This document shows positions 1,662 through 59,911 of a stretch of DNA of 60,373 bases, piece by piece. Positions within the stretch are counted from its first letter, which is position 1; every line of letters starts with the position of its first letter. The position numbers were made by a program, and so were the translations under genes. The notes beneath the pieces were generated by a model that was given only the letters and a program-made list of their open reading frames with translations, did no database searches and was not told the origin of the DNA. Location: contig NZ_LIUF01000008.1 in NCBI RefSeq assembly GCF_001280425.1, positions 1-60,373 of the forward strand, in the 5' to 3' direction. This DNA comes from Haloarcula rubripromontorii (lineage in GTDB: Archaea > Halobacteriota > Halobacteria > Halobacteriales > Haloarculaceae).

Positions 1662-1737
1662 GCCAAGGTGGCAGAGTCTGGCCTAACGCAGCGGCCTGCA
1701 GAGCCGCCCACCGCCGGTTCAAATCCGGCCCTTGGCT
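1662..1737 (+). tRNA. tRNA-Cys (GCA)
   Basis: Acceptor strands GCCAAGG (1662-1668) and CCTTGGC (1730-1736) pair fully. The anticodon loop CTGCAGA holds GCA, the T-arm is GCCGG-TTCAAAT-CCGGC, and the discriminator base is T, as expected for cysteine. CCA is not encoded and no intron is visible. The 3' 45 nt form the integration target of the element that follows, and the gene remains intact after integration. Confidence 0.97.
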
Positions 1738-1738
1738 T
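1693..1738 (+). other. attL: 46-bp integration site inside tRNA-Cys
   Basis: The segment from the anticodon stem to one base past the tRNA recurs at 59866-59911 with a single difference (C1711 versus T59884). The copies are in direct orientation, 58,173 bp apart. A tyrosine integrase gene starts 99 bp downstream, as is usual for tRNA-targeted archaeal elements. Confidence 0.93.
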
Positions 1739-1836
1739 GATTTCACCGTTCTCAAGGCTTCTAAAGGCATTTTTCGTCAAAGCTGGTCGTGGTCACAAAC
1801 TCCCGAAAGGGGCCGTTCACGGTAGGATTGACCACT

Positions 1837-2970
1837 ATGAGCCGCGACAAATCGCAAGACGGCGAAGGGCAAGTCCGTGGAATCCCCACGGCCACCCAGC
1901 CGTCCAAGGTTGCATTGACCGAGAAGCAGATCACCGACTACCAACACCACCGCAAGCGGATGCTAAAGTGGTGCCTCAACCTCGGCAAAAATCCCGATGA
2001 AGCCGTGGGGTACTCCGAGGACACCATCCGCGTCCGTGCGGGTCACATCGACCGCTTCTACCGGTGGGTCTGGAACAACGCGTCGGACGGGTACACCACG
2101 CAAGTCACCGAAGATCAGGCAGATCAGTATCTCAAGGAGTTGGCCTACCGAGATGACCTGTCGAGGAGCACGGCGAACAAGTACAAGAAGGCCCTCCAGA
2201 TGCTCTTCAAGTGGAGGTCGCACGATCTCGGCGAAGACCACGACTGGGATCCCGCCCTCACGTTCGCCACCAGCGACAGCTCCAGCCAGCCCCGAGACTA
2301 CCTCTCCCGCGACGAACGTCAGCAACTCCGTGAAGGCGTCCTCGAACTCGGCGACGAGATTCCCTCCTACAAGTCCGTCTCACCCGAGGAACGCCGCCGC
2401 ATCAAGAAACTCCTCGCCGTCCGCCTCTCGAAGCCGCTCAGCGAGATCGGCAAGGACGACTGGAAGGAAGAACGGTCGTGGAAGTACCCCTCGATGGTGT
2501 TCACCGCACTCGACGCCGGCCTCCGCCCGGTCGAAGTCGGGCGCGCGACGACGGAGTGGGTGGACATCAGCAACGAGGTGCTGCGCATCCCGAAGGGCGA
2601 GTCCAGCAAGAACCGGGAGAACTGGACGGTCGCACTCTCGGAACGCACGGCGGACTACCTCGACCGCTGGCTCACCGAGCGCGAGTCGTACACCAAGTAC
2701 GACGACACGGACGCCCTCTGGCTCACGCGGCGCGGTAACCCGTACTCCTCGTCGAGCTGTAACGGCCTCCTCAGCCGGGTGCTGGAACACACCGACATCG
2801 ACAGGGACGTGACGTGGTACGCCATCCGACACTCGGTCGGGACGTACATGTCGGCGGAGGCCGGTCTCGGCGCGACGCAACAGCAGTTGCGCCACAAGTC
2901 GTCGCAGACCACCCTCAAGTACGATCAGGCCCCACCAGAGGAGCGGCGCGACGCCCTAGACAAGATGTGA
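1837..2970 (+). CDS. Tyrosine recombinase (integrase)
   Basis: A 377-aa phage-type integrase predicted to recombine attL and attR for integration and excision. The N-terminal half (residues about 30-140) is a SAM-like core-binding domain. The catalytic half shows Arg about 230 in GLRPVEVG, a YAIRHS motif with Arg about 331 (Tyr-x-x-Arg replaces the usual His-x-x-Arg, as in many haloarchaeal integrases), LRHKSS with His about 353, and the nucleophile Tyr about 362 in LKYDQ. ATG 1837 is preferred; an in-frame GTG at 1789 would add 16 unlikely residues. The gene sits just inside attL and reads into the element. Its stop is 8 bp from the convergent stop of the next gene. Confidence 0.93.
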   Translation: MSRDKSQDGEGQVRGIPTATQPSKVALTEKQITDYQHHRKRMLKWCLNLGKNPDEAVGYSEDTIRVRAGHIDRFYRWVWNNASDGYTTQVTEDQADQYLKELAYRDDLSRSTANKYKKALQMLFKWRSHDLGEDHDWDPALTFATSDSSSQPRDYLSRDERQQLREGVLELGDEIPSYKSVSPEERRRIKKLLAVRLSKPLSEIGKDDWKEERSWKYPSMVFTALDAGLRPVEVGRATTEWVDISNEVLRIPKGESSKNRENWTVALSERTADYLDRWLTERESYTKYDDTDALWLTRRGNPYSSSSCNGLLSRVLEHTDIDRDVTWYAIRHSVGTYMSAEAGLGATQQQLRHKSSQTTLKYDQAPPEERRDALDKM

Positions 2971-7530: not shown

Positions 7531-7532
7531 GC

Positions 7533-10165: not shown

Positions 10166-12916
10166 CTACAGGAAACCAATGTTCTTCCGGAGTCGTGACG
10201 TCGATGGTAGGTATCCCTCTGCAGCAGCTTCACTCGCCCTGTCCGCATAATAGGTCGTTATCGGAAGTCGGGCAGTCGCGCTGATTGCACCGATATGAGA
10301 TTGAGAGAGGAGATACACCTGTGATGTGAGGGTTTCGATGTCTGTAGTTCCCTCCTTTCGCTCCACCTGAATTGGCTGGGGAAGACCGGTGTACTGGCTG
10401 GTTGCTTGCGACTCCGGTTTTCCGAATGAAGCTAAGATGGCGTGTGCTTCCTTCTCGTTCAGGGCCGCGATTCCTTTGTCCGGAACGTTTGCCTGACCAC
10501 CCTGTAGGTTGAGGACGCGTGCAGGTGACTGCTTCCGGATCTCAACGATGTCGTAGGTGATCGAAAATTCCTCGAGAAGTTCCTTGACAGGCCCCAGATT
10601 CTCGTTCATGAAGCCGTCACGGTGGATGACGATGTGCCCGGGATACGACTCCCGTTCCTGTTTGTACCCCACGATAGCCTGTCGGACGATGTCCTTGAGC
10701 TTGCCGGGTGGAATCTTCTCCCCGGCCTGAGGATTCGCGGATGTGTAGCCGAGAATCGTGCCATCGTCGTAGATGCTCGTCGTGGAGGCAGCAACGTGAA
10801 CGCGATCGTCACTATCCTTCGGGTACCGATGGGAAACGTCAATCCCGATGAAGAGGTCTGCCTCCCCGGGCATAGAGTCCTCCGCGGTAAACGGAACGCC
10901 ACCGGCGGCTGCAACGAGTCCAAGAGCGATGTTCGGGAGAGCGTTGTCGTCGCCAAGCGTGTCGATGTGCGCCATCTGACTGTCGACACGTTTCTGTCGG
11001 AGTGCTTTCTTCACCTCGTGGTAGATGTCGCTCGGATCGCTCGCGCCGAGATTGAATCCGTCTGGTGGAAGAATCACGCACGCGGCTGTGTACTTGTTGT
11101 CATCCGGGATGTCGTAAATCAGATCGCCGTAGATTGCATCGGCGCTGTCATCGATGTTGTACTCGTAACGGTCGACACTGTCGGCTTCAGAACCGATTCG
11201 GGAGAGAATCCTCTCGAGATTTTCCCATCGATCTTCGTGTGGGCCCTTGTTTGGATGGATGATACAGACGTTGAACTCGTCTGGAGGCTGGTAGACCGAA
11301 TTCGAAGTAATTCGTTTCGGGTGGTCACCCGACTGTCCTTCACCGAACTGGAGGATGTCAGCGTCCTTCTCAAAGAGTCGTTCGATGGAGTATGTCTCGC
11401 TCTCGGACAATGGGGTTGGATCAAACACCACATTCAAGTCCTGCAGCGGAACCGCGTCAAGGTCTTCCACGAACGTGGTGCTTCGCTCAAGACATCGCTG
11501 TGCGGACAGCCGAGTCTTCCCTTGTATGTCGCTATTGAACTCTGAAGCAAATGATTTGAGATTCTCGAAATGCGGCTGGAGAACGAGCAACTCTTGGGGA
11601 TATGCTTCCGTGTTGAGACTCCCCTGTTTCGTGACCTGCACGACACGATTGTTGGCCTGCTCGAATTCATCGATCGTTGTCGGAGCGACCTTTTTCGCCC
11701 CTCTATGATATTCGACGACACTCTGATTGCCCAACTGCCGAAGTTTGTCTTGGGCCTTTGCCTGCAGGAGTTCGTCGAAATATGCTCCCTTCCCGGATTC
11801 TCGATAGCTAACGTTCAAACGGAGCCCTCGATACAGCCGCGACTGATCCACGTCATCGAGCCGGTAATCCGAGATAATCTTGTGACGGAAGTCGATGAAG
11901 AGGTAGACGCGTCCCTTAGTGGTCACAGAAAAGGCGAGGTTATACCTCTCGTGTAACCGGAAACCTTCCTTCTCTACGATCGGCTCTTGTGACAGTATCT
12001 TGTGAATACCGTGATCCGTGCGGTAGTCGTCGGACAGTTGGCGCTTGGCGACTGTCTCGAGAAAGTCCTTGAGGATCCTCCGATCCTCGTAGCGTTCGTA
12101 ATCGAGTTGGCGGGAATCTTCTACGTGGTTGATCCGGAAGTCGTCGAGACTGACCGATGTAGGGTCGATTCGGTCGAGACTGACAAGCCGGAGCGGTTCG
12201 ACTACCGCGACGACCGGTGGCTGGTCGTGTTGACGGATAATCTCTCGACGGGCCTTGTACGTGTCTCGGAGAGCCTCCTCCTCATCATCCGGAAGATAGC
12301 CGTCGATCGTGACTAGTTCGTACTCATAGATTTGTAGTGGTGGGACGCGTCCCTTACTCGCAAAGCCGGTCAGGGCGTGTCCGGTCGTGGTCATCGCCGG
12401 ATCAGGGACGTCTGCGAGAGCGTCGTCGATTTCATCGTCAAGCGAGGAGGTATCTTCCTCCTGCCCACCGTCATTTGACTGTGTCTTCGTCTCGAGTGGC
12501 GCACCGTCTAGCGAAGTATCCTGCGAGGAGGGATTCGGAGTGTCTGATTCTGACGTACCATCTCCAATACCACTATCTTCGGGCGTTCCCCGGCTGATTT
12601 GGGTATCCTCGGTCGCATTCAGGTTGTAAAACACTCGGCCACTCGATTCATTCGTGGTGAATCGAATATCCGAGAGCGTGTATGTCGCGTCCCGGTCGAA
12701 GTCGTGTTCATAGACTTCCTCGGGAGTACTATTCGACCAGAGGGTGATATACCGGCTTGTCCCTGTTCCGTCCGTGTACTGTAGCTTCTTGTTGCCCGGG
12801 CCTTGGCTCGGATTGCTGTACGCGCCCTCGACCTGAATGACGACGGTGTACGTCTGATACTCCTCGAGGTCTTGCGATACGTCAGTCTCGTCCAATCGGA
12901 TTTCTTCGTCAGTCAT
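10166..12916 (-). CDS. ago: Long prokaryotic Argonaute with N-terminal OB-like domain
   Basis: A 916-aa long Argonaute, a nucleic-acid-guided nuclease. The first 100 residues (YTVVIQVEGAYSNP … YITLWSN … YTLSDIRFTTN) look like an OB-fold ssDNA-binding domain, as reported for halophilic Agos of the NgAgo type. An acidic linker follows. PIWI is C-terminal: GIDVSHRYP (Asp about 693), AGEKIPPG (Glu about 733), HRDGF (Asp about 767) and ITTYYADRAS (Asp about 892) give an apparently complete DEDD tetrad, so slicing should be possible. ATG 12916 is chosen; it overlaps the DUF2797 stop by 8 nt, and the longer frame extends into that gene. Last gene of the seven-gene cluster. Confidence 0.93.
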   Translation of the reverse strand: MTDEEIRLDETDVSQDLEEYQTYTVVIQVEGAYSNPSQGPGNKKLQYTDGTGTSRYITLWSNSTPEEVYEHDFDRDATYTLSDIRFTTNESSGRVFYNLNATEDTQISRGTPEDSGIGDGTSESDTPNPSSQDTSLDGAPLETKTQSNDGGQEEDTSSLDDEIDDALADVPDPAMTTTGHALTGFASKGRVPPLQIYEYELVTIDGYLPDDEEEALRDTYKARREIIRQHDQPPVVAVVEPLRLVSLDRIDPTSVSLDDFRINHVEDSRQLDYERYEDRRILKDFLETVAKRQLSDDYRTDHGIHKILSQEPIVEKEGFRLHERYNLAFSVTTKGRVYLFIDFRHKIISDYRLDDVDQSRLYRGLRLNVSYRESGKGAYFDELLQAKAQDKLRQLGNQSVVEYHRGAKKVAPTTIDEFEQANNRVVQVTKQGSLNTEAYPQELLVLQPHFENLKSFASEFNSDIQGKTRLSAQRCLERSTTFVEDLDAVPLQDLNVVFDPTPLSESETYSIERLFEKDADILQFGEGQSGDHPKRITSNSVYQPPDEFNVCIIHPNKGPHEDRWENLERILSRIGSEADSVDRYEYNIDDSADAIYGDLIYDIPDDNKYTAACVILPPDGFNLGASDPSDIYHEVKKALRQKRVDSQMAHIDTLGDDNALPNIALGLVAAAGGVPFTAEDSMPGEADLFIGIDVSHRYPKDSDDRVHVAASTTSIYDDGTILGYTSANPQAGEKIPPGKLKDIVRQAIVGYKQERESYPGHIVIHRDGFMNENLGPVKELLEEFSITYDIVEIRKQSPARVLNLQGGQANVPDKGIAALNEKEAHAILASFGKPESQATSQYTGLPQPIQVERKEGTTDIETLTSQVYLLSQSHIGAISATARLPITTYYADRASEAAAEGYLPSTSRLRKNIGFL

Positions 12917-13814
12917 GAGTAGAGTCTGTGTCGGGGATTGAGAGACCGCTCGTCGTCTCGAACGTAATTTTCGCTCCAGCGTGCCGTTTGACGTTGAATG
13001 TGAACGATTCGGTCGCAATGACGCTCCCCCGAATGCCGACTACACGTCCCTCCTGACGATCCCCGGTAGCCAGCTCCGAGTGCGTCGACACTACTTCATT
13101 ATTCACATCACTTGCTCGGTGAGAAACCGATACAATCCGTTCCCGGACTTTGTCGGTAGAGAGTCCCTCTAACGCGTAGCAATCCTTGAGCCGTTCAGGG
13201 AAGTATGTAGCTGCTTCACGGGCGGTCTGTACGAGTTGCTCGACCGGCTGTTCGGTCGGGACATACCACGAGTTGTCCGCCTTGCTCGGATACTCCTCGG
13301 CGAGTTGGGTCTCGATGAGCCCGGCGACCTTCCGATTGTGGCACTCGCCGATGATGATCGCGTGGGTTGCCCCCTGCTCAGCCCATCGTGTGTGCCGGCG
13401 GTCAGCGCGAGTAATCCCAACCTTGACCTTGTCCTTGGCGACGAGATAAACAACGAAGTTGTGGGCACACGCGTCTCGTTTGTACTCGGGGTAAGGGCAG
13501 TTACGCCACGAACACTCGGTGCCCGGATTCCAGATGCAGGGAGTCATCGGAGGTGTCCCTGCGCAGTTACTGCACAGACCCCGATCTAGGTCGACGTCCG
13601 CCCCACAAGAGGGACACACTTCATCCTCGTGAATTGTGATGCGAACGTCTTCACCGATCAGCGCGTCGCAGTTTATGGGGTGTTCAAACCCGAAGAATTG
13701 CAACGCGGGTCGCCCTTTGTACCACGTGATGTGGTCAAGATACCCCTCGCGCTGGTGCGTGTAACTAGCATCTTTCTCTCCGAACGAGTTCAGGCCAACT
13801 TGATAACCGCTCAT
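12909..13814 (-). CDS. DUF2797-family protein with zinc motifs
   Basis: A 301-aa protein. The middle contains several Cys pairs (CPSC 67-70, CSNC 81-84, further Cys at about 93, 101, 106 and 116) suggesting zinc ribbons. It is followed by VVYLVAKDKVKVGITRADRRHTRW (about 121-144) and EQGATHAIII, the DUF2797 hallmark. The YL…KVGIT…R arrangement resembles the GIY-YIG nuclease fold, which is an inference. DUF2797 genes are usually lone chromosomal genes; here one is translationally coupled to Argonaute. GAGGT lies just before ATG 13814. The 150-bp gap upstream separates it from the PLD gene. Confidence 0.82.
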   Translation of the reverse strand: MSGYQVGLNSFGEKDASYTHQREGYLDHITWYKGRPALQFFGFEHPINCDALIGEDVRITIHEDEVCPSCGADVDLDRGLCSNCAGTPPMTPCIWNPGTECSWRNCPYPEYKRDACAHNFVVYLVAKDKVKVGITRADRRHTRWAEQGATHAIIIGECHNRKVAGLIETQLAEEYPSKADNSWYVPTEQPVEQLVQTAREAATYFPERLKDCYALEGLSTDKVRERIVSVSHRASDVNNEVVSTHSELATGDRQEGRVVGIRGSVIATESFTFNVKRHAGAKITFETTSGLSIPDTDSTHD

Positions 13815-13964
13815 GTTACCTCAGGGAGAGATGCGCATGTTCGTGAGATTGGGAAGACAGACGGATGACTGCTGTACCGGTCGTTTCTCGGCACAGATGT
13901 TCGTCGAGCTCGGGGTTGTTACCATCACTTCTGCCATACCGTCTCGTCCGGGAGGTAATGAATA

Positions 13965-16007
13965 TCATGACAGGATTCGAGAGAGGAATCCGCGGCCACC
14001 TTCGTTGATGTCGAAGGGGAACCAATCTTCGACCGCATCTTCCTCCTTGATGATGACTTGGTGTCCGTCGTTGCTCGCTCGCGCTTCGTTCGGGAGGCTT
14101 CGAGCGTACTCACGGACGGAGCTGTAGACGCTAAGGGACTCGTCAAACTTGGCGACTAGCTTACCGTTTCGGCGCTGGAACTCAACGAGATTGCCGTCGA
14201 CGGCGTCTTGCCAGAGGTACTTCCCGAGGTCATACTTCTCCTCAGCGGGGCGTTCGGGGAAGTATTCCGGCAGTTCACGACCGGCACGCTCGTACAGATC
14301 TGCGAAGACGTTCCGTGCCTCCGCGAGCGTGTCGTCGTCTTCCTCTCGGATCACGATGTCACGGTCACGGAACTCCTGAGCGAACCACGTGAACAGCGGG
14401 TTTGAGCGTTCGGTCAGCTTGCTCGCGTACTCTGCTGTCTTGTGTGTCTGCTCGAACTGGACATCCAGATACAGCGTCTTTGCCCGGTGCTGAATGCGAG
14501 ACCGCGGCAAGTTGTCGTTGCTGATAAACGCGAGTGCGGGGAAGTCGGCATCGCCCGTCCAGTGTTTCTGGCGGAAGTTGAGGTAAGCTTCGGTGTCGAT
14601 GTCACTCGGGTTCATGTCGTCGAAGACGACCGGGAACACCGAGTCCACCCGTCGTACGGAACGAAGCGTCGTCGTGTTGAGTTTGTCTCCGTCCTCCGGT
14701 TCGGACACGTGACCGTCGGAGAGCATGTGGAATGCATACCGTGCGAGTGTTCCCTTTCCGCTCCCCGGCTCACCGTAGATGTAGAGGCTCGGCAGGAATT
14801 TGTCGAGGTCGATACCGCGGTTTTTGTAGACGCTAGCATAACGATTAGCGAACGGTGCCCAGAAGAACCAGATGATCGCCTCAAACATCTGTGCCTTTAC
14901 GGCCACCGGATGCGCTGTCTTGCCGAACTTATCCACGGCCTCAAAGTACTCCTCGAGCTGTTCGAGTGCCGCGTCGACGCGTTCGGGGTCGTCCGGTACC
15001 TCGCGCATCAACTCAAGCTGAAGGTCGTCAGGCGTCTGCAACACCAGCTGATCGTCATCGGTGAACCACATCTTCGGAGCGCCGAACTTCTCCTTCGCGT
15101 GCTGACTGACCGCACCGGGGGACGCTCGAAGTTCGCTTCCTTCGATAGAACCGTCGAGCGATCGAAACTCGTCCTTCCAATCGTTGGGCACGTTCTCGTA
15201 CCCCTGTAGCGTTTGGGAGATCTGGACGTCGCTCTCCTCCTCATCGTCTGTGATCGAGACTGTGAGGTCTGCCTCCTCCTCCTCGAAGTCTCCAATGATG
15301 GTCGCTTTCCGGACGTTCGCCTCATCGAGTCGCTCCGTGAGTGCCTGCTCGACTTCGGCTTCCTCCGACTCCGAAGTTGTCCGTCCCGCGATCCACGCGT
15401 GAACTTCTTCTTCCTGTTTCTCTTCGGGGAGCTCTTCGACGCGTTCAGTGAGATCCTCCATGAACACCTCACCGTAATCGCGCATCTCCTCGTACCATTC
15501 CTCGAAGACGGCGTCAAGGCGTTGGCCGCCATCAGTGTAGAAGACAACGATGACGTTCTTCTGGTAAGTCGATTTCCACGCCTTCTTGCTGAGATTCGGT
15601 GATCCCACGATGTTCGTCCGTGTACCGTCCTCGTGTTCGAGGATGTAGAGTTTGGAGTGTACCTCGTTGTTGTTGATTGCGGGGAGAACGATCTGGAGGC
15701 GTTCCTCGCGCTGGAGTCGTTCGAGGCGGGCGGCGAGCTGCTCCTTGCCCCGGAGCGACTCTCGATAGTCCTTCGTGCTGTCGCCGACCACGACTTCCAT
15801 CTCGTCAACATCAATGTCGGCGAAAACGCTGTCGAGCATTTCCGGTGACTCGGAATAGGTGACGGCGCGAATTTTGCGCACATCTTCCGTAAAGTACGTC
15901 TCGAAGTTCTGCCACCGTTTCAGCGTCGCCAGCTCGAGCGTGGCTTTTTCGCCAGTGTCGGCGAACTCCACCTCCGCTTCCAGCATCGTGTTGGGATTGT
16001 CGCTCAT
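13965..16007 (-). CDS. PLD-type nuclease fused to a P-loop ATPase
   Basis: A 680-aa two-part protein. Residues about 25-170 form a phospholipase-D-like domain with a single HKD half-motif (VHSKLYILE, His117/Lys119, then GSPNLS 135-140), so an active site would need a dimer. An acidic linker follows. Around residue 410, YIYGEPGSGKGTLARYA is a Walker A, FPVVFDDMNPS is a Walker B, and ALAFISNDNLPRSR is sensor-1-like with arginines. This resembles AAA+/SF3-like motors that act on DNA. It follows herA by 24 bp on the same strand. Most likely an ATP-driven nuclease of the Argonaute cluster. Confidence 0.8.
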   Translation of the reverse strand: MSDNPNTMLEAEVEFADTGEKATLELATLKRWQNFETYFTEDVRKIRAVTYSESPEMLDSVFADIDVDEMEVVVGDSTKDYRESLRGKEQLAARLERLQREERLQIVLPAINNNEVHSKLYILEHEDGTRTNIVGSPNLSKKAWKSTYQKNVIVVFYTDGGQRLDAVFEEWYEEMRDYGEVFMEDLTERVEELPEEKQEEEVHAWIAGRTTSESEEAEVEQALTERLDEANVRKATIIGDFEEEEADLTVSITDDEEESDVQISQTLQGYENVPNDWKDEFRSLDGSIEGSELRASPGAVSQHAKEKFGAPKMWFTDDDQLVLQTPDDLQLELMREVPDDPERVDAALEQLEEYFEAVDKFGKTAHPVAVKAQMFEAIIWFFWAPFANRYASVYKNRGIDLDKFLPSLYIYGEPGSGKGTLARYAFHMLSDGHVSEPEDGDKLNTTTLRSVRRVDSVFPVVFDDMNPSDIDTEAYLNFRQKHWTGDADFPALAFISNDNLPRSRIQHRAKTLYLDVQFEQTHKTAEYASKLTERSNPLFTWFAQEFRDRDIVIREEDDDTLAEARNVFADLYERAGRELPEYFPERPAEEKYDLGKYLWQDAVDGNLVEFQRRNGKLVAKFDESLSVYSSVREYARSLPNEARASNDGHQVIIKEEDAVEDWFPFDINEGGRGFLSRILS

Positions 16008-16031
16008 GGGTTGACCACCTGTTTAGGATCG

Positions 16032-17891
16032 TCAGTCGTGTCGTACCACGGGGTAGTCGAGTCCACGAATCTCGACCGGCCGGACGTTCGGCGCCTTAAT
16101 CACCGCCTGCCCCTGCGAGAACGTCGCAAGATCCTCAGGAGCATACCGACCGGGAATCGGGATGTCCTCTCCTATTTCCTCCTCGAGCTGGAGGTATATG
16201 CGCGTCCGCAACTGTGAGCGAATCTGGTCGTCGATGTCAGTTGGCTCCTGCGTCACCAGCGCGAGGCCGAGGTTGTATTTGCGGCCACGCTTGGCGATTC
16301 TCCGGAACGACTGGACGATCGAGCGGGTTTGCACGGTCGACGTGTCGCCGAGGAACTCGTGGGCTTCGTCAAGACCGAGCAAGAGCGGCGTATCAGCGAC
16401 GTGTGGATCGGGGTCGTCCGTGGCGAGCTTGTTCTCCACGATGTAGGTCAGCAGCGCCATCACAACCAGCCGCATCTCCATGTCTTCGGGGTCGCCGAGG
16501 TGGTTCACCGGGACAATCGTGACGCGACCCGGCTGGAATAACTCGTTCGAGACATCGGTGAGCGACTGGGTGCCCGAGTCGAAAACGTCGGTGAAATAGC
16601 TCTTCTCGACCCGGCGAGTCATCCCCCGCCACATATTCTGGTTGATGTCGTGGCGAGTCTGGAGGCGATCCTCGTTGTCGTCAAGGTAGTCGATGAAGCC
16701 TTCGTACGTGGGCGTCGGATCATCACCGAAGTACGATTCGATGCAATCACGGATAGCCGCACGCGTCGGAGGCTTGGGATCGAACGGCATGATGAGTTCG
16801 GGGTTCGACTGAACAAGGTCAAACGGGATGCCGAACTCGCGGAGATTGTTGATGTCAGGTACCGTTTTCCCATCTACGGCTGGGGCGAACGTCTGGAGAT
16901 CGTGCGATCCGCAAGCCCCTGTGTTAATACCTCCAACTTCGATTCCCTCCTCGTCAAGGCGCTGGCGAACGTCGTCCGGGAGGTCTTCCGGGGCGGGATC
17001 GTCACCGAGGCCACTGTACTCGGCTTCGGGATCAACAATGACCATTCCCAGTAGCCGATCTTCGGTGCCGTCGTCCGCAACGGGGATTTCATAGGTCTGG
17101 TCAGTCGCCAGTTGCCGGTATAGATTCTTGGTGAAATGGGTCTTCCCAGCGTCCGTCGACCCAGTCACGAGCGTGTGCGTATAGATCGCGGGCGTCGACG
17201 CGCTCCCCGTCCCGTCGGGCAGTTGGAAGGCTAGTGGGCTGTCCGGGGGGTGTCGTTCCCCGCCCACAGCAAGGTGGCCGACGAACGGGCCACTGTCGGG
17301 AAGGTTCAGGCCAGTCTGCAGGAACGCGTCTCCGGTGGCTTCGTAGATCTGCGTAAATGGCTTCGGAACGCGGTCGACCGTTGACCGCTCGAGGTCGTCC
17401 TCGTCTATGCCCTCCACAATTGCGATGGGATCGAGTTCGGCGGCCTGCACGTATTGGCGCTCGTCGATTGTCTCGCCATCGATCCCCCTACGGATGTCCG
17501 ACTTATCATCGATGTCTGCGCGCTGTTCGTAGCCGATTTCGATGACCTCGGTGAGGAGTTCAGCGTGAGACTCGTTTTCTCTACCCGGGTACGGGATCTG
17601 GATGTAGTCGCCGAGGCGAAGGGCGTCCCGCGTGTCACTTCGAATGTAGCCGATGATCTCGTGAGCGCCGCGGCGGACGCTGAGCCCCTCGCTGGCAGTG
17701 ACGTGCCCTAGCGGCTCGGTCGTCGCAGTCGTTCGGAGCCCCCGGGTCTGGGGCCTCCCTCCGAATTCGAGGTTGACGGTTCCGTCTTGTCCATCGGTCT
17801 TGTCCGATTCGTTCTCGTCCTCGCCCTCTGCAAGGTCGTTCATTCGGTCGACGAACTGGTCGAAGTCCTCGTCGGTGTCGCTGTCACTCAT
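16032..17891 (-). CDS. herA: HerA-family DNA translocase
   Basis: A 619-aa HerA/FtsK-superfamily hexameric DNA pump. An N-terminal HAS-barrel-like segment (about 65-160) precedes the P-loop GSTDAGKT (244-251). The Walker B is LLLGLDEAHEFLGD, followed by RRIAKRGRKYNLGLALVTQEP with the sensor Gln and arginine finger region. HerA works with NurA in archaeal end resection. The start ATG overlaps the stop of nurA by 4 nt, so the two are co-translated. This copy belongs to the element and is probably a second copy beside a chromosomal one. Confidence 0.93.
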   Translation of the reverse strand: MSDSDTDEDFDQFVDRMNDLAEGEDENESDKTDGQDGTVNLEFGGRPQTRGLRTTATTEPLGHVTASEGLSVRRGAHEIIGYIRSDTRDALRLGDYIQIPYPGRENESHAELLTEVIEIGYEQRADIDDKSDIRRGIDGETIDERQYVQAAELDPIAIVEGIDEDDLERSTVDRVPKPFTQIYEATGDAFLQTGLNLPDSGPFVGHLAVGGERHPPDSPLAFQLPDGTGSASTPAIYTHTLVTGSTDAGKTHFTKNLYRQLATDQTYEIPVADDGTEDRLLGMVIVDPEAEYSGLGDDPAPEDLPDDVRQRLDEEGIEVGGINTGACGSHDLQTFAPAVDGKTVPDINNLREFGIPFDLVQSNPELIMPFDPKPPTRAAIRDCIESYFGDDPTPTYEGFIDYLDDNEDRLQTRHDINQNMWRGMTRRVEKSYFTDVFDSGTQSLTDVSNELFQPGRVTIVPVNHLGDPEDMEMRLVVMALLTYIVENKLATDDPDPHVADTPLLLGLDEAHEFLGDTSTVQTRSIVQSFRRIAKRGRKYNLGLALVTQEPTDIDDQIRSQLRTRIYLQLEEEIGEDIPIPGRYAPEDLATFSQGQAVIKAPNVRPVEIRGLDYPVVRHD

Positions 17892-19258
17892 AGTTTGGTA
17901 GTAGGTTCCGTGCTGTCAGTTGACTGTTCGGTGGAGGAGTCGGTTGCTTCCCGTCCGTTGGATGTCCCCGAGTCATCCGAGGCAACGATGTCTGGCTCTC
18001 TCGCAAGGCTGGGGCCGCCGCCGAAACCCCATCGCCTGTCCGTATTGTAGTCACCGACCTCCTCGGTGCCTCGAATAAGGCTGACGAGGTGGCGGCGGGC
18101 CTCGCGGGAGATTCGTGCCCGGTCGTCGGCCCTCTTCACGGCGAACGGTACGTCTCCGGCCTCCGCGATGTGGGCCAGTGCGAGCTGCTGGAGACGTAGC
18201 CGATCCTCTCTCGAGTCCACCAACATCAGCGGAGCCTCAACGCGGAGGACAATATCGTCGGGTAGCCGAACGAAGAAGAACGCTCGCCGGAAATCCCGTG
18301 GTTCGCGATCCTCCGCCATCTGGAAGCCACCGAGCGGCTCGACATCGTTCCCGTAGACGCGCTGGTTAGAGCGAACGAGCCACGACGTGAACGTCAGGTG
18401 GTCGGGCTCGCTGTCCGCTAGTAGGGACGAGATGAACTGGGAATCGTCATCCCACGGGATACGTGGCGAGTCGTCGAGAGCGTCTGTCTTTGCGGTCAGC
18501 GCAGCCACGACATCATCGGAGCGGAGCGTCTTAGCGAACCCGAGTGTTGGCAGACCTCGGCTGGCTAACGTGTCGATCGCGTCGAGACGAGACTGGATGG
18601 CAGAGGCGGCGACCCCCATTTTCTCGATCTCCTCAAATTCGATCGCGGCGTCCGCACTGCGACTCGTCCGCGTCATATTGACGAACGGGAGCACAGACAT
18701 TGGATAGAGGCTCCCATCGAGGAAGAGGGGGCCGTCAATCACATCCGCTAGTCGCTTGCTGTGCCAGCACTCGGCGGGGACGCGTGCCGAGGCGCCGACC
18801 CATCGGTCGAGTTCGCTCCGGGCGGGCGCCTCCTCAACGGGAACGAGCGTGAGGCTTACGTCGCCGTCAATCAGGTCGACCGGTGAGTCGACATCCTCGA
18901 AATCGGCGTGAACGGCCGCCGTCAGGGTCTCCAGTTCTTCAACGCTCTCATCGCAGTCGCCGAGGGCCCCGCCGCTAGCCACGGCGGCCGAAGCCACCAT
19001 TCCGTTGCGGAATTTCTTGGACGGTACCGTGCTGGCATCGACGCCGTACCAGCAGTCGAAGAGCGCGCCATCGGCGAGTTCCGCCGCCGATTCGCGGTAG
19101 ACGCGTGGGGGCTCAAGGGTATCAATCTCGCCTCCATCACGCGCCATATAGCCGCGGAATAGCTCTCGTGCATTCGGAATGTCGTCGTCTCCATCGGCAT
19201 TCTCGTCGATGAAGCGGAACACCTCTTCAAGCGCGGAGACGGCGTCGTGCGAGACCAT
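17888..19258 (-). CDS. nurA: NurA-domain 5'-3' nuclease
   Basis: A 456-aa protein with the NurA fold. A first acidic motif lies in YGVDASTVPSKKF (Asp about 74), a second region is PLFLDGSLYP, and the C-terminal block RLPDDIVLRVEAPLML … LQQLALAHIAEAGDVP is characteristic of NurA. NurA degrades DNA as a ring loaded on HerA. The gene sits between rad50-like (1 bp gap after its stop) and herA (4-nt overlap). The length is near that of haloarchaeal homologues. Confidence 0.88.
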   Translation of the reverse strand: MVSHDAVSALEEVFRFIDENADGDDDIPNARELFRGYMARDGGEIDTLEPPRVYRESAAELADGALFDCWYGVDASTVPSKKFRNGMVASAAVASGGALGDCDESVEELETLTAAVHADFEDVDSPVDLIDGDVSLTLVPVEEAPARSELDRWVGASARVPAECWHSKRLADVIDGPLFLDGSLYPMSVLPFVNMTRTSRSADAAIEFEEIEKMGVAASAIQSRLDAIDTLASRGLPTLGFAKTLRSDDVVAALTAKTDALDDSPRIPWDDDSQFISSLLADSEPDHLTFTSWLVRSNQRVYGNDVEPLGGFQMAEDREPRDFRRAFFFVRLPDDIVLRVEAPLMLVDSREDRLRLQQLALAHIAEAGDVPFAVKRADDRARISREARRHLVSLIRGTEEVGDYNTDRRWGFGGGPSLAREPDIVASDDSGTSNGREATDSSTEQSTDSTEPTTKL

Positions 19259-19260
19259 GG

Positions 19261-22200
19261 TTAATCATCCCCGGCAGCAGCCCCTTCACTGGGGTCGCTC
19301 GTGTCGTCCTGCTCGACATCAGTCTCGACCGTAGAGGCTCCGTCACCGTCGTCCATCTCGACGTGAATGCGGTGATCGGCATCTTGGATGAGACCCTCAT
19401 AGCGGTCGACGACGAACACCTGCGGCACGTTCCAATCACGGATGCTGTCGACGGCCTCCTCGAGCTGGTCGATATGGGCCTCGTCGAGGTGGTTGGTCGG
19501 TTCGTCGAGAATGAAGGGTGGAAGCCGATCGTCGCGCCCCTCGGCCTGATCGGCAAGGACACGGTAGACACCCGCTCGAAGGGCGATCGTCACAAGGACG
19601 CCCTCGCCGCCGCTGGCTTTGTGCGGGTCGCGTGCGGTGTCTGTTCCGCTGACCAGCCGGAGATTGTAGTCCTCGTCAATGTCGACCGCCTCATACGTGC
19701 TGTTCTGGTAGAGATCGCGGAATACCTTGTTCGTGTGGTGCTTCAGACGGTCGAGAACACGCTTTCGCATCCGCGTCTGTACCTCTTCGTAGGTGTCGGT
19801 AATCGCCTCAAAGTCGCCGAGAAGGGACTGGGCCCACTTGATCTGCTCCTCAAGGCCAGACTTCTGGTCGCGCTTGTCTCGGAGCCGGCCGAGCCGATCC
19901 TCAGCCTTACTTTTGGCTGCCTGCGCGTCGTCCCGCTTCTCCCGGGCGGTCTCGAGTTGGCCATCTAAGTCCTCGATCAGGCTCTCTGCCTGCTGCTCCT
20001 GCTCTCGCAGCTCCTCCATCGTCGTATCGTCGAGTTCCGTCTCCAGCGATTCGATCTCGTCCTCGAGCTGCTGTAGTTCGTCGCGCTTCTCCTCGAGCTG
20101 CTCTTCCTTGTCGTCGCGCCGCGAACGATGCCCTTCACGATCGCTCTCCAGCGTGTCGATTTCGCTGTGAGCGTCACGAGCATCACGGGCGGCGTCGCGG
20201 GCCGACTCCACGGTAGTTAGCTTCTCCTCTGCGTCCTCGAGTTCGTCCTCTGCGTCCTCGACCGCGTCCCGGGCCTCGTCGATTTCGGCCTGCTTATCCT
20301 CGATGTGGGACTCCACCTCTTCGATTTCGTCTTCGACATCCGCCAGCTCATCGCGCGCCGCCTCGAGTTCGCGTTCGGCATCTTCGACCGCCTCGACGGT
20401 GTCCTCGACCGCTGTGATGGCTTCGATTGCCTCTTCGCCATCTTCGATTGCGGCTTCGAGGCGTTCGATGTCATCGGTCAGAGATTCGACGTCTTCCTTC
20501 AGGGCGTCTCGGGAATCGCGCGCCGCCTCGATGTCGGCCTCAAGTTCATCGATCTCGTTCGCGGCGTCGGCTAGTGCTCGGTAGCTGGCCGCCTCGAAGA
20601 GCGCCTCCGCGACCGCTTGGACGCGGGCGAGTCGCTCGTCCGCGGTGTCGAGGTCTTCTCTGGCCACTTCGGCAGTCGACCGAGCGGCGTTCCTCTCGTC
20701 CTCCAGCCGATCTATGTGTTCGCCGTAGTCGTGAGTGGCGCCGATGTCGCCCCCGTCAAGTGGCCACTCGCTATTCGCCAGTGACCGCAGATCCTCGACC
20801 CGTGCCGTCGTACGCCCTACGATCTCACGTGCGTCCGCAAGATCTTCGGCCGCTCCACGGTGGTTGTCGAGAGCGGCTTCTAGCTCGTCCGGGAGACTCC
20901 CGGTGAATACGGTATCGATGTCTTCAGCGGAGACGGAGAATCCGAGTGTGGTCGCTTTCTCGTTGGCTCGGTTGACCGCTGCCTCGAACGCCGCCTCAGG
21001 GTCGTCCACGTCGGCCTCGAGGCTCTGACGGATGTCTTCGTGTCGGTCGCGTGCGTCAGACAGCTCTGTCTCCATCTCGCTGATCTCGTCAGCGAGGCGT
21101 GAACGACGGTCGCGCTTGGTTTCCCGCTCCGATTCGAGATCAGATTTCTCGTCTCGAAGGTCGTTCATCCTGCTGCGGACGGCTGCCTCGTGATCATCAA
21201 TGTCGCCCAGTGGGGCCTCGAGATAGTCACGCAGCAGATCGTCGCGCTCGTCTCGATACTGTTCGAGTTCCTCCTCTGCGTCGTCTAACGCCGATTCGGC
21301 CTCCTTGACGGCGCTGCGAGCGTCCTCTTGCCGATCCTCAGCGTCGTCGAGATCATCTTTGAGGTCGTCAAGTTCGTCCTCTAGTCGGCCGACCGTCTCC
21401 TGCGCGCTATTGAGGGCGCTTCGCTTCTGTTCAGCGTTGCTACTTACTGCGTCATATCTGTCCTCGTAGTGGTCGACCGCCTCGCTGGCCTCTTCAGCGT
21501 CCGTGAGATCAAATTCGTCAATCTCGTCGTCAAGATCGACGATGCGCTCCCGGTGATCGCTGATTTTCGCGTCGCACCGATCGATATTCTCCCCCAACTC
21601 CTCGATCTCCGTTTCGAGGTCGCTGATGGCATTTTTGACGTCGTCGCGGTCGTCGCGCAAGTCATCGAGTTCGGACTTCCGTTGCTGGTGATCGTCGATG
21701 TCGTCCTTGATGTCCCGCAGTCGCTCGCGGGCCTCCTCGATGCCGTCGGACAGTTTTTCCATGCGCCCGTCCAGTTCCTCGACCTCCTCGGCTTTCGCCT
21801 GCATCGTAGCCTTCGGATCGTCTGCCTCGAGTTGGCGGATGTCGTCACGGACAGTCGAGAGACGCGACCGCTTGTCTTCCAACCAGTCCTCGACAGGGCT
21901 GGAAACCTCGTTGATGTCCGCCTCGTACTCATCGGGAGCAGTCAGGCCGAGCAGGTTGTCGAGGATCTCCGCACGCTTCTTCGGGGTGGCCTCGATCAGC
22001 CGGTTCAGTTCCGTCTGCTGGGCGTAGGTGCTGTTGGCGAACGCCTCGTAGTCCATCCCCAGTAGCCGCGTTACTTTCTCCTCGATGTCGGTCGACTTCT
22101 CCGAGTATGTTTCCCCAGTATCGAGGTTAGTCATCTCGGCTTGGGCCCTCGCGCCCCCGTCACTGCGCCGGGAGACGTCGACTGTAATCTGGTACCGAGT

Positions 22201-22446
22201 GTCGCCGACGCTGAAGACGAGTTCGGAAGTAGCACTGTCTGCGCCGTCCTGAATCAGGTCGACGAGTTCGTGCGCACCAATGCGATTCCGGCCGCGGTAG
22301 GGGTACAGTGTCGTGTACAGCGCGCGGGCGATAGTCGACTTACCGGCACCGTTGGGGCCGTAAATCAGCGTTAGTCCTTCACCGAACTCGATTTCCAGTT
22401 CGTCGTAGGATTGGAAATTGGATAGGGTGAGCCGTTCGAACTTCAT
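19261..22446 (-). CDS. rad50: Rad50-like SMC ATPase without zinc hook
   Basis: A 1061-aa SMC-type ATPase. The N-terminal lobe has FQSYDELEIEFGEG and Walker A GPNGAGKS (30-37); AQQTELNRLIEATPKKRAEIL is Rad50-like. A long Glu/Asp/Arg coiled coil spans about 180-880. The C-terminal lobe has ASGGEGVLVTIALRAG (signature) and PFILDEPTNHLDEAH (Walker B and D-loop). The canonical hook CxxC at the middle of the coil is missing: the only Cys seen in the coil is in NIDRCDAKISD, and the expected apex region reads EALFEAASYRALADA. Partner of the adjacent Mre11-like protein (4-nt overlap). Confidence 0.9.
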   Translation of the reverse strand: MKFERLTLSNFQSYDELEIEFGEGLTLIYGPNGAGKSTIARALYTTLYPYRGRNRIGAHELVDLIQDGADSATSELVFSVGDTRYQITVDVSRRSDGGARAQAEMTNLDTGETYSEKSTDIEEKVTRLLGMDYEAFANSTYAQQTELNRLIEATPKKRAEILDNLLGLTAPDEYEADINEVSSPVEDWLEDKRSRLSTVRDDIRQLEADDPKATMQAKAEEVEELDGRMEKLSDGIEEARERLRDIKDDIDDHQQRKSELDDLRDDRDDVKNAISDLETEIEELGENIDRCDAKISDHRERIVDLDDEIDEFDLTDAEEASEAVDHYEDRYDAVSSNAEQKRSALNSAQETVGRLEDELDDLKDDLDDAEDRQEDARSAVKEAESALDDAEEELEQYRDERDDLLRDYLEAPLGDIDDHEAAVRSRMNDLRDEKSDLESERETKRDRRSRLADEISEMETELSDARDRHEDIRQSLEADVDDPEAAFEAAVNRANEKATTLGFSVSAEDIDTVFTGSLPDELEAALDNHRGAAEDLADAREIVGRTTARVEDLRSLANSEWPLDGGDIGATHDYGEHIDRLEDERNAARSTAEVAREDLDTADERLARVQAVAEALFEAASYRALADAANEIDELEADIEAARDSRDALKEDVESLTDDIERLEAAIEDGEEAIEAITAVEDTVEAVEDAERELEAARDELADVEDEIEEVESHIEDKQAEIDEARDAVEDAEDELEDAEEKLTTVESARDAARDARDAHSEIDTLESDREGHRSRRDDKEEQLEEKRDELQQLEDEIESLETELDDTTMEELREQEQQAESLIEDLDGQLETAREKRDDAQAAKSKAEDRLGRLRDKRDQKSGLEEQIKWAQSLLGDFEAITDTYEEVQTRMRKRVLDRLKHHTNKVFRDLYQNSTYEAVDIDEDYNLRLVSGTDTARDPHKASGGEGVLVTIALRAGVYRVLADQAEGRDDRLPPFILDEPTNHLDEAHIDQLEEAVDSIRDWNVPQVFVVDRYEGLIQDADHRIHVEMDDGDGASTVETDVEQDDTSDPSEGAAAGDD

Positions 22447-23648
22447 GCGTCTCCCTCCGTTGAGGTGTCGCCAAATCGCTCGGAAGCCAGTTCGTGGAAT
22501 CGTTCCTTGGCGTTCGCACGCCGCCGCGTATCGGCGAGGTCGGGATCTGCGTTACGCAACATATCTTCAAGTTCGCGAGCCTCCTCGCTGATGTCCAGCT
22601 CGCCGACCGCGTCGTTTAGCTCGGCGTCGACGTCAATCTCGCTCTCGGTGTCGAGGTCACCGAGATCACCCGTGATGGCCTCGACTACCCGTTCGTCGGT
22701 TACGTCAGCATGGACAACATCGCGTGCGTGCAGGTAGTCGAGGATTCCCTGCTTGGTCACGCCGTTCTCGGCACCGCTGACGTCCACGAACACAACCGCA
22801 TCCTCCACGGGCCCCTTCTCCTGTATCTTGCGCTCGACGAGATCGAACGTGTCGGACTCACCGAACTCGATGTCGATCTCGATGAACTCGCGTGTGTCGA
22901 GCAGCAGTCGCTCGCGGTTGATGGGCGAGTCCTCGTCCGGTCGGATGGTGAGTAGATCGACTGACGGCTGCGGCGTGTCACGCGTCGTCCGCTCGGTCGA
23001 TCCCGGGTACCATACGGGGACACCGCGACAGGTGTCGCCCATTCGCTCGTGGCAGTCACCCAGCGCGATGCCGTCGACGTCTGTCCCGAAGCGGTCGAAC
23101 ACGGGGTCGAGGTCGAGGATGTTAGAGGAATCGTGTCCGACTGGATCTATTGGTGGGGAGAACAGCTGGTGCATGGCGACCAGCCGAACTAATCCTTCGT
23201 CGGCTGGCTCGAGCGAGAAGTCGGCGTCCTCCCAGTCTGGGCCCTTGACGGAATCGATACCATACAAAGCGACATCTCCGTTGATCGTTGTCGGCGTATG
23301 CGTGAGGCGAATTGCGTCGCCCGTGAGAACGAACTCGTCCACGAAGTCGGTGTTCCGTCGGAGTTCGTGGTTTCCGACGATGACGTAGAACGGGATGTTC
23401 GCCTTGCGAAGTTCGCGCAGGGCCTCGTGGCACGCGTAAACATCGTCGAAGCTCGTGAGTTGGTCATCGAAGAGATCACCAGTGTGTAACACAGCGTCGA
23501 CCGGCTCGTTGTCATGGTCGGGATGTTCTCCACGAGCGATTTCTAACGTTTGCTCGAACGCGTCGAAGAAGTCCTCCCGTCGCGTCGTGTTCCGGTACTG
23601 CTGATAGCCGATGTGGGTGTCGCTAACGTGAAGGATGCGAGTCGTCAT
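22443..23648 (-). CDS. mre11: Mre11-like nuclease
   Basis: A 401-aa calcineurin-like phosphoesterase. The metal-binding motifs are SDTHIG (Asp10, His12), GDLFDD (Asp58), GNHE (Asn93, His94), VAMHQL (His160) and ALGDCHER (198-200), where the usual GHxH reads GDCH: one metal-ligand His is Asp. The capping region and an acidic, helical C-terminus for Rad50 binding follow. ATG 23648 is preferred over the in-frame GTG 23660 because GGAGGT lies 10 nt upstream of it. First gene of the minus-strand cluster; its promoter region faces the ATPase gene at 23879. Confidence 0.9.
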   Translation of the reverse strand: MTTRILHVSDTHIGYQQYRNTTRREDFFDAFEQTLEIARGEHPDHDNEPVDAVLHTGDLFDDQLTSFDDVYACHEALRELRKANIPFYVIVGNHELRRNTDFVDEFVLTGDAIRLTHTPTTINGDVALYGIDSVKGPDWEDADFSLEPADEGLVRLVAMHQLFSPPIDPVGHDSSNILDLDPVFDRFGTDVDGIALGDCHERMGDTCRGVPVWYPGSTERTTRDTPQPSVDLLTIRPDEDSPINRERLLLDTREFIEIDIEFGESDTFDLVERKIQEKGPVEDAVVFVDVSGAENGVTKQGILDYLHARDVVHADVTDERVVEAITGDLGDLDTESEIDVDAELNDAVGELDISEEARELEDMLRNADPDLADTRRRANAKERFHELASERFGDTSTEGDA

Positions 23649-23660
23649 GGTCGGTGGCAC

Positions 23661-23878
23661 CTCCGTCGCGGAGGATGAAGTCGCATGTCAGACATCTCTA
23701 TCTTCAGCAACTCTTGCCGGTCACTTATATTTATGGTTTAGAACATGAGCTTGCCCCAAAGTCCTACTATTGAGTCAAATTGTGAGCGCAAACGATACGG
23801 AGTGCTTCTCCGGAACGTCGTAGTAACGCTAAAATAGGACACCGAATAGAATATGGCTGTGGGAGTACAAACACGACT
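23661..23878. promoter_or_regulatory. Divergent promoter region between mre11-like and ATPase genes
   Basis: The minus strand holds TAAATATAAG about 80 nt before the mre11-like ATG, which implies a leader of about 55 nt containing GGAGGT. On the plus strand GAATAGAATATGG (about 23844-23856) lies about 27 nt upstream of ATG 23879. This is the only promoter clearly seen for the first five genes of the Argonaute cluster. Confidence 0.6.
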
Positions 23879-25279
23879 ATGCAAAGAACCGATTTCACGC
23901 CAGATTACAGGCAGCTGAATCCATGGTGGGATTCCGGCGATGTCTCCGAAGCAGACCGGTATCACTCCGAACGACGCTCCGATTACAAGTACAAACTAGA
24001 CCGAGTCCGTAACAACCGATTCGTGACTATCGCCGGGGCAGCGGGAAGCGGCAAAACAACGATTCTACACCAGATCGCCCACGATCTTACGATCGAGTAT
24101 GGCGTTTATCCGCAGAACGTCATGTATCTACCACTCGGAGATTCCCGATTCCAAATTGGTAGTGACGTACTGGCCGATGCTGTTGACGAGTTTGCCACAT
24201 ACTACTGGCGGCAAGACACCGATCCCGGAACCGGATACGTATTGATTGACGACGCACATGCGACCGATTCGTGGAGCGAGCAAGTGCGCGATTGTCTCGA
24301 TAAATACGACAATCTCACTATCGCCGTGACGCTGCCAACAGTAGCACGAGCGAACACTGACTCGATTGAAAAACTGAACATCGAGACATCTAGCGATCTC
24401 CTCCTTCCACCGAAGTATTACGACGTCATCACCGAAACCCGCGACATTGAGGTCAACAAGGAAGTAGTCAGGAGTGTCCGCGACGCGTTGGAATCTGCTG
24501 CAGATACCGGAGATGTCACAGGTCTTGAGTCGGCGGTCAATTCAGTACTGGATTCGATCGAATCAGCAAGTACACTGAAGCGCGGTGTGCGGGAGTTCCT
24601 CCAAGGAAGTGGACGCGATGTTACTATCGAGGATGTCCGCAACAATTTGGAGTTGACTGTCTATCGAGATGTCCCCCGCTATCAGCAATTCGACGACCGA
24701 AGCGATCTCTACGCGTTGTGTGCTATTGCAGCGATGTATCCGGGTCAAACGCTTGGTCTGAAAAACTTGAGTGAGATTTTGGACTGTGACCGTCGAACGT
24801 TGCAACGCTATATCGACGTTTTGGAGGACTTCTTCATCCTAACGCCCTCGTATCAATACAAGCACGAGCGTCGACGGAGCGTGCGGCTGTACGTTCGTGA
24901 CCCGGTGCTCATGGGCTCGCTTCTTGACCTTGACTATGACGGACTACTTCCGACAGATGTCGAGCAGAAGTTGATAACCGCAGTGACCTTTGACCACTTG
25001 AAGCGCCTTGGCTTCCGTTTTCACCGAAGTAACGCCCCGGTAGACTTCTGGGAGAGCGGAGATACTGACGTCGACTTCGTTCTGGAAACGGGTGACGGAA
25101 CGCCAATTCCGATAGTTACGCCCGACCCGAGCGGAGATAGAGCAGCAGGAGACCGTATAGAGGCGTTTTGTGAGGAACACGACTGCACGCTTGGAGTAAA
25201 GGTCTCGCGTGACGCCGAACCTGATATTGAAGAAAACATGGCCACGCTTCCGCTCTGGCTATTCCTCTTCATCATCTAA
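23879..25279 (+). CDS. AAA ATPase (AAA_14/DUF4143-like)
   Basis: A 466-aa protein with Walker A GAAGSGKT (53-60), Walker B YVLIDDAH (about 118-125), an arginine-rich sensor region, then a winged-helix segment (LSEILDCDRRTLQRYIDVLEDFFIL) and a C-terminal nuclease-like domain (FWESGDTDVDFVLE, with a DxD/E pattern as in DUF4143). Such proteins are common in archaea, often in mobile regions, with poorly known roles. Transcribed divergently from the Mre11-like gene and upstream of the methyltransferase, on the same strand. It may be a regulator or part of either neighbour system. Confidence 0.8.
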   Translation: MQRTDFTPDYRQLNPWWDSGDVSEADRYHSERRSDYKYKLDRVRNNRFVTIAGAAGSGKTTILHQIAHDLTIEYGVYPQNVMYLPLGDSRFQIGSDVLADAVDEFATYYWRQDTDPGTGYVLIDDAHATDSWSEQVRDCLDKYDNLTIAVTLPTVARANTDSIEKLNIETSSDLLLPPKYYDVITETRDIEVNKEVVRSVRDALESAADTGDVTGLESAVNSVLDSIESASTLKRGVREFLQGSGRDVTIEDVRNNLELTVYRDVPRYQQFDDRSDLYALCAIAAMYPGQTLGLKNLSEILDCDRRTLQRYIDVLEDFFILTPSYQYKHERRRSVRLYVRDPVLMGSLLDLDYDGLLPTDVEQKLITAVTFDHLKRLGFRFHRSNAPVDFWESGDTDVDFVLETGDGTPIPIVTPDPSGDRAAGDRIEAFCEEHDCTLGVKVSRDAEPDIEENMATLPLWLFLFII

Positions 25280-38110: not shown

Positions 38111-38113
38111 CCT

Positions 38114-59865: not shown

Positions 59866-59911
59866 GGCCTGCAGAGCCGCCCATCGCCGGTTCAAATCCG
59901 GCCCTTGGCTT
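59866..59911 (+). other. attR: duplicated tRNA-Cys 3' segment
   Basis: A 46-bp direct copy of 1693-1738 with one difference (T59884). It is preceded by CCAAGG (59862-59867), which can pair with CCTTGG at the end of the copy. Marks the right boundary of the integrated element. Confidence 0.92.

Follow-up and report, generated by a model that had tools for sequence, protein, structure and literature searches.

An Argonaute gene cluster carrying Mre11, Rad50-like, NurA and HerA genes on an integrated element of Haloarcula rubripromontorii

The closest described relative of the locus reported here is APAP, a haloarchaeal system in which a long-A prokaryotic Argonaute (pAgo) is paired with the PLD nuclease-ATPase AgaP. 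In the pair from N. pellirubrum AgaP is toxic without Ago; the two proteins acted on plasmid and virus in H. hispanica, the catalytic site of AgaP being needed against plasmid and that of Ago against a single-stranded DNA virus (PMC11442185). Some ago-agaP operons were noted to have a helicase gene nearby (PMC11442185). A 2018 survey placed an orthogroup of UvrD plus PD-(D/E)XK among the genes of pAgo operons (PMC6299218). In bacteria, CbAgo and RecBCD together degrade DNA, RecBCD degrading the breaks that CbAgo induces (PMC10164581), and pAgo guides are said to derive from products of RecBCD or AddAB (PMC10164581; PMC12948488). Archaeal HerA-NurA degrades double-stranded DNA by cutting both strands, not by making 3' overhangs, and an antiviral role has been proposed for it (PMC12977600). 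HerA, NurA, Mre11, Rad50 and DUF2797 are mentioned neither in the APAP paper (PMC11442185) nor in the 2018 survey (PMC6299218). Here we describe a seven-gene cluster, on a 60,373-nt contig of Haloarcula rubripromontorii (hereafter the window), in which all five of these families stand in one row with an Ago and an AgaP homologue, and we relate it to the other Ago loci of Halobacteria.

The cluster consists of seven open reading frames (ORFs) on the minus strand (10166-23648), in the row order Mre11, Rad50-like, NurA, HerA, PLD-ATPase, DUF2797 and Ago (Table 1); all are present, with their families confirmed, as an original prediction made from the sequence alone had described them. That prediction had most genes joined by overlaps or gaps of 1-4 nt, which is accurate for the first three junctions (-4, +2 and -4 nt, in order from Mre11) and not for the others (+24 nt, a gap of 150 nt between AgaP and DUF2797, and -8 nt). 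We refer to the Mre11-Rad50-NurA-HerA set as MRNH; its four genes bear out the further proposal that the element brings an archaeal end-processing machine of its own. Values of dN/dS between 0.05 and 0.21 for all genes, against homologues in G278 and/or G241 (genomes and loci are denoted by G and L numbers), indicate purifying selection. A scan for sigma-70 promoters and terminators gave hits no more numerous than in shuffled sequences, as expected for an archaeon.

Table 1. Features of the Argonaute cluster and of the element that carries it, in window coordinates
Feature	Coordinates	Strand	Evidence and remarks
Mre11 nuclease	22443..23648	-	Start ATG 23648 (ORF open to GTG 23660); Metallophos 7.9e-14; NCBIfam Mre11_Halo 5e-64
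Rad50-like ATPase, 1061 aa	19261..22446	-	AAA_23 5.5e-22; SbcC_Walker_B; NCBIfam Rad50_Halo 1e-127
NurA nuclease (divergent)	17888..19258	-	PF09376 matches in relatives; Foldseek best matches
HerA-type translocase ATPase	16032..17891	-	HerA_C, DUF87; HerA models of PADLOC and NCBIfam
AgaP-family PLD nuclease-ATPase	13965..16007	-	RE_NgoFVII/PLDc_2 (weak Pfam matches); P-loop ATPase; homologous to PLD-ATPases that adjoin Ago in other haloarchaea, N. pellirubrum among them
DUF2797 protein	12909..13814	-	PF10977 3.4e-32; at least 8 invariant Cys in alignment
Long-A Argonaute, 916 aa	10166..12916	-	Piwi PF02171 1.4e-19; PADLOC pAgo 1263 bits
TATA-like AT-rich element	23724..23732	-	About 76 nt upstream of Mre11 ATG; sequence inspection only
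DUF4143/AAA_14 ATPase, divergent	23879..25279	+	PF13635 2.3e-14; conserved neighbor of Mre11 or Ago at many such loci
attL, 3' end of tRNA-Cys (gene 1662-1737)	1693..1738	+	46-nt direct repeat, 45/46 identical to 59866-59911
Tyrosine integrase of element	1789..2970	+	PF00589 5.3e-18; follows tRNA-Cys
attR, right copy of tRNA-Cys end	59866..59911	+	Sequence on its right directly follows tRNA-Cys in G055

Translation of the Ago gene most likely begins at ATG 12916, not at TTG 13018, to which the ORF stays open. Its catalytic tetrad D693/E733/D767/D892 (DEDD) is intact, and invariant across an alignment of 15 haloarchaeal Agos; the PIWI domain resembles those of CbAgo and CpAgo (E 1e-36 to 1e-38), with CbAgo among the nearest solved relatives. 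The N-terminal OB-fold also proposed for this protein was not confirmed, there being no Pfam or PDB sequence match. Motif scans of Mre11 showed the phosphodiesterase motifs DTHIG, GDLF, GNHE and GDCH; the last was considered as an unusual change of motif V and rejected as such, a GDxH motif occurring also in the chromosomal Mre11 of this genome and chromosomal haloarchaeal Mre11 reading GDNH. The Rad50-like protein keeps the Walker A (GPNGAGKS), signature (SGGE) and Walker B (FILDEP) motifs of the head; its scan revealed no CxxC zinc hook (its single Cys is residue 291), and the hook is likewise missing from Rad50 of G278, G061, G241 and G011 and present in other MRNH lineages.

Window NurA gave no direct Pfam match, and its PDB sequence and profile-profile comparisons failed or were weak. 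Its identity is nevertheless settled, because relatives in the same operon position match PF09376 (L059, 1.6e-8; L062, 2.2e-7), as does the genome's chromosomal NurA (9.5e-25), and because Foldseek, given its low-confidence model (pLDDT 53), ranked NurA chains from the HerA-NurA complex of T. kodakarensis first and second (E 1.5e-3). The gene lies beside that of the HerA P-loop ATPase, with a 4-nt overlap. In AgaP the motif scan located HSK117(x)15GSPN135 and a Walker A motif at residue 412; this 15-residue spacing stands in place of the split motif HxK(x)~49GSxN, whose 49-residue form was seen only in G343 among the proteins scanned. DUF2797 was considered as a GIY-YIG nuclease on account of motif-like residues (Y123, KVGIT 131-135, R139, E168); the assignment stays tentative, with no Pfam match to such a nuclease and no PDB fold match for its model (pLDDT 81).

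Set against described systems, that of the window is a variant on the pAgo-PLD systems of haloarchaea, not a system of a new kind. It shares with APAP a long-A pAgo with an intact tetrad in one row with an AgaP-family PLD protein, a haloarchaeal host, a location that is often on plasmids or islands, and a divergent DUF4143 ATPase that flanks many such loci. It differs in the sequence of its Ago (about 27% identical to NpAgo), in the DUF2797 gene upstream of it, in the HxK(x)15GSPN motif of AgaP as against HxK(x)49GSxN in APAP, and in the MRNH genes that precede AgaP. Although an AgaP homologue shares the row with the window ago, DUF2797 intervenes between them, whereas the two genes directly adjoin in G241. 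DNA-guided pAgos of the CbAgo/TtAgo type resemble the window Ago in their PIWI domain (CbAgo/CpAgo) and in partnership, here predicted, with a DNA end-processing helicase-nuclease, but these use the RecBCD or AddAB of the host, while here a processor of archaeal Mre11-Rad50-NurA-HerA type is encoded beside Ago. The same four families form the herA-rad50-mre11-nurA repair operon of thermophilic archaea; unlike it, the window set is a divergent lineage on a mobile island, with a Rad50 that lacks the zinc hook and with AgaP, DUF2797 and Ago following, and the host retains separate chromosomal Mre11-Rad50 (C2:469745) and NurA (C1:209614) genes. Antiphage systems such as HerA-Sir2 (Nezha) and HerA-DUF4297 likewise pair the HerA translocase with a nuclease, which here is NurA, accompanied by Mre11-Rad50 and an Argonaute. 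The coupling of Ago to two alternative end processors, and the addition of MRNH and DUF2797, were not found described in the open-access papers covered, preprints excluded; an earlier description elsewhere is possible.

These two alternative processors emerged from mapping of loci around haloarchaeal Ago genes, combined with Pfam calls. The first is Mre11-Rad50, which occurs with NurA and HerA near Ago in the window, G278, G061, G241, G003, G065, G268, G373, G094, G223, G150, G068 and G140, adjoins together with them, in G275 and G334, a PIWI protein of highly divergent sequence, and lies alone near Ago in G322, G343 and G074; rows on one strand that join other Ago lineages to other Mre11-Rad50(-NurA-HerA) lineages are found in G140, G068, G275, G334, G322 and G343. 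The second is AddAB-like, comprising UvrD-PDDEXK and PDDEXK proteins arranged as Ago-AgaP-x685-PDDEXK-UvrD or as AddA-AddB beside Ago. Proximity was counted in 50 Ago-bearing Halobacteria, with 74 copies of Mre11 and 47 of AddA. At a distance of up to 10 kb, Ago has an Mre11 gene for neighbor in 16/50 genomes (expected 0.47) and an AddA-type helicase-nuclease in 21/50 (expected 0.30); at least one of the two is present in 35 of the 50, and in 39 when the distance is extended to 20 kb. A restriction-gene control from the same genomes, HSDR_N (HsdR; 53 copies), gave none within 10 kb of Ago and about 3 within 20 kb. The two machines overlap near Ago less than chance would have it (2 observed vs 6.7 expected; P 0.004, relatedness ignored), and their labels change at least 8-9 times for Mre11-Rad50 and 8 times for AddAB on a quick Ago tree with some long branches; the association of Ago with one or the other arose many times on this tree. 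In support of the original prediction, haloarchaeal Ago loci repeatedly carry either Mre11-Rad50(-NurA-HerA) or an AddAB-like UvrD/PD-(D/E)XK pair, of the type on which bacterial Agos rely.

The divergent PIWI protein of G275 and G334 (L057, L058, L112; 762 aa, Piwi E 3e-5, MID_MedPIWI-like) heads a Mre11-Rad50-NurA-HerA operon beside AgaP and an N6 methyltransferase. A conserved 221-aa protein lies between NurA and HerA in the MRN-x-HerA lineage (L039 13944-14609, and homologues), and in the NgAgo-like clade AgaP is separated from the PDDEXK/UvrD genes by a 685-aa protein that may be AddB-like or a new component (L052 10852-12909, and homologues); neither has a Pfam match.

An Ago search of 391 Halobacteria genomes gave matches in 57, distributed over several clades. 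That of the window Ago (about 38% identity or more) includes 15 genomes, the window's among them; a set resembling NgAgo/NpAgo is about 27-30% identical to it, and further clades exist. When relatives of the window Ago were sought beyond Halobacteria, in 295 genomes of the phylum, a single fragment outside the order matched at E 1e-10; phage records gave no match to NurA. DUF2797 stands directly upstream of Ago in every locus of the window clade examined and is tied to that clade only; in 145 genomes, every match that exceeds 200 bits adjoins Ago (6/6), the remaining copies scoring below 33 bits. The closest relatives of the cluster, in Halorubrum sp. Hd13 (G278) and Halopenitus persicus (G061), lack AgaP and have the row Mre11-Rad50-NurA-HerA-DUF2797-Ago. 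In G241 a different Ago (26% identical) follows the same cassette of MRNH and AgaP (NurA 69%, AgaP 87%), and in G011 Mre11-Rad50-NurA-HerA-AgaP occurs with no Ago. Trees of HerA and NurA join the window with G278 and G061, then G241, then G011, and the window and G241 resemble each other at the HerA-AgaP junction; the probable history is therefore a loss of AgaP in G278 and G061, with exchange of the 3' Ago module. Elsewhere MRNH is found without Ago (for example in G011, G179 and G342), G179, G342 and G253 have an AgaP gene near MRNH and no Ago there, many AgaP genes adjoin Ago at loci without MRNH, and in G268 and G003 the MRNH and Ago units face each other on opposite strands. Among the Ago genes themselves, a split after the N-terminal domain leaves two overlapping ORFs in G003 (L037/L062) and G065 (L038), and in Halopenitus persicus (L036) the split falls near residue 302.

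The notion of a fixed seven-gene system must accordingly be abandoned, as its parts vary between related loci: MRNH and Ago each occur without the other, the two closest relatives have no AgaP, and DUF2797 belongs to one Ago clade. While such independent occurrence of ago and resection genes defeats the strict unit, a functional link survives it, given that the genes lie together far more often than chance would have it and came to do so repeatedly; nor is the seven-gene layout due to chance, its order being conserved in related genomes and its processor genes enriched near Ago.

The cluster is cargo of an element of about 58.2 kb integrated at tRNA-Cys, as evidenced by the att repeats, the tyrosine integrase and an empty site in a sister-species genome, G055, where the right flank of attR abuts tRNA-Cys (80% over 229 nt). 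The first 1.5 kb of the element had no match in the relatives' loci examined, and in the 391-genome search the window Ago was carried by no other listed genome of the genus. Other genes of the window include JAB (Prok-JAB) and ThiF/E1-like genes preceded by one for a small protein (7246-10020), convergent to Ago and with the look of a ubiquitin-like operon; JAB/ThiF-type genes of the same kind lie by Ago in G278 and G061 (L035 1-1709, L036 2-1689, L110, L111), accompanied in G278 by a gene for a polymerase-beta-type nucleotidyltransferase. A DUF499 protein and a DUF1156/N6_N4 methyltransferase (34696-40777) form a candidate defense or modification operon, and a STAND-type NTPase of 1166 aa (53839-57339) has TPR repeats and an archaeal winged-helix N-terminus.

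We consider it somewhat more probable than not that the cluster is an anti-plasmid or antiviral system centered on Argonaute, of the pAgo-PLD kind known from haloarchaea, and that it has recruited a processor of DNA double-strand ends for itself. We infer a single shared pathway, the direction of hand-off within it, and each biochemical step from family knowledge and the RecBCD-CbAgo precedent, which lead us to favor the following loop. Exposed or blocked ends of invading DNA would be bound by Mre11-Rad50; HerA would pump the DNA into NurA, which would shred it; short single-stranded products would become Ago guides, possibly with help from DUF2797; and guided Ago and/or AgaP would cut further copies of the invader, returning new ends to the first step, so that guide supply and destruction would reinforce one another. 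The place of MRNH would be filled in other haloarchaea by an AddAB-like machine. The more specific proposal, that MRNH or AddAB-like enzymes are dedicated guide-making machines that turn invader ends into guides for the neighboring Ago, in a cis-encoded cycle of cutting, resection and reloading with machines interchangeable within one system family, we advance tentatively, at rather less than even confidence. The role of MRNH may be guide supply, removal of cut DNA or both, between which sequence does not discriminate.

Several observations weigh against this interpretation. The 150-nt gap before DUF2797-Ago permits separate transcription; MRNH has a use of its own, since it occurs without Ago; split Ago genes lie near MRNH in several genomes (G061, G003, G065 and G068); and neither machine is near Ago at 15 of the 50 loci within 10 kb, or at 11 within 20 kb. 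The P values presuppose that genes are placed at random, and they take no account of the relatedness of genomes or, beyond one control gene, of the clustering of defense islands. In addition, the N. pellirubrum Ago-AgaP locus (G090) has neither machine within 10 kb, yet the pair was active in H. hispanica (PMC11442185), which makes it doubtful that a system must be self-contained in the sense originally proposed. A rival reading, rather unlikely in our judgment, is that guides come from elsewhere, by way of replication or chromosomal nucleases, and MRNH destroys only DNA already broken by Ago or AgaP, as RecBCD does with DNA cut by CbAgo (PMC10164581). Cleavage of both strands by HerA-NurA without 3' overhangs (PMC12977600) fits that role, and chromosomal Mre11, present in all genomes sampled, and a NurA-family gene, matched in 382/391, could supply the guides; gene context alone, however, cannot tell degradation from guide supply, and a loop with both roles is the simpler reading of the bacterial data.

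The variable composition of these loci also raises an unlikely prospect, that MRNH(-AgaP) and DUF2797-Ago are separate defense systems on a common island, perhaps under a common promoter, with no joint pathway. Consistent with this, MRNH and Ago are each common without the other, DUF2797 and Ago are always paired and set apart by 150 nt, the units face each other in G268 and G003, and further defense-like genes lie on the mobile island of the window; yet one-strand, short-gap rows recur in unrelated Ago lineages, the restriction-gene control shows no such closeness to Ago, and the two machines that alternate share a biochemical type although they are unrelated. Quite improbable, finally, is that AgaP is the true partner of MRNH in one nuclease system, Ago being an optional targeting addition that restrains and directs AgaP. 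The loci in which AgaP accompanies MRNH without Ago, including G011, and the toxicity of N. pellirubrum AgaP without Ago (PMC11442185) suggest such an arrangement, the toxicity implying that some restraint on AgaP is needed in G011; but AgaP is absent from the two closest relatives, which retain MRNH and Ago, and many AgaP genes stand beside Ago with no MRNH.

For the source of Argonaute guides, bacterial work points to host RecBCD or AddAB. In haloarchaea, end processors of two alternative types are encoded beside Ago in many independent instances, and guide supply and target destruction are therefore genetically dissectable in one portable cassette. These loci also point to MRNH being a mobile defense module rather than a repair operon, and the repeated pairing of Ago with a processor makes testable both where archaeal Argonautes obtain their guides and what destroys the DNA that Ago has cut.

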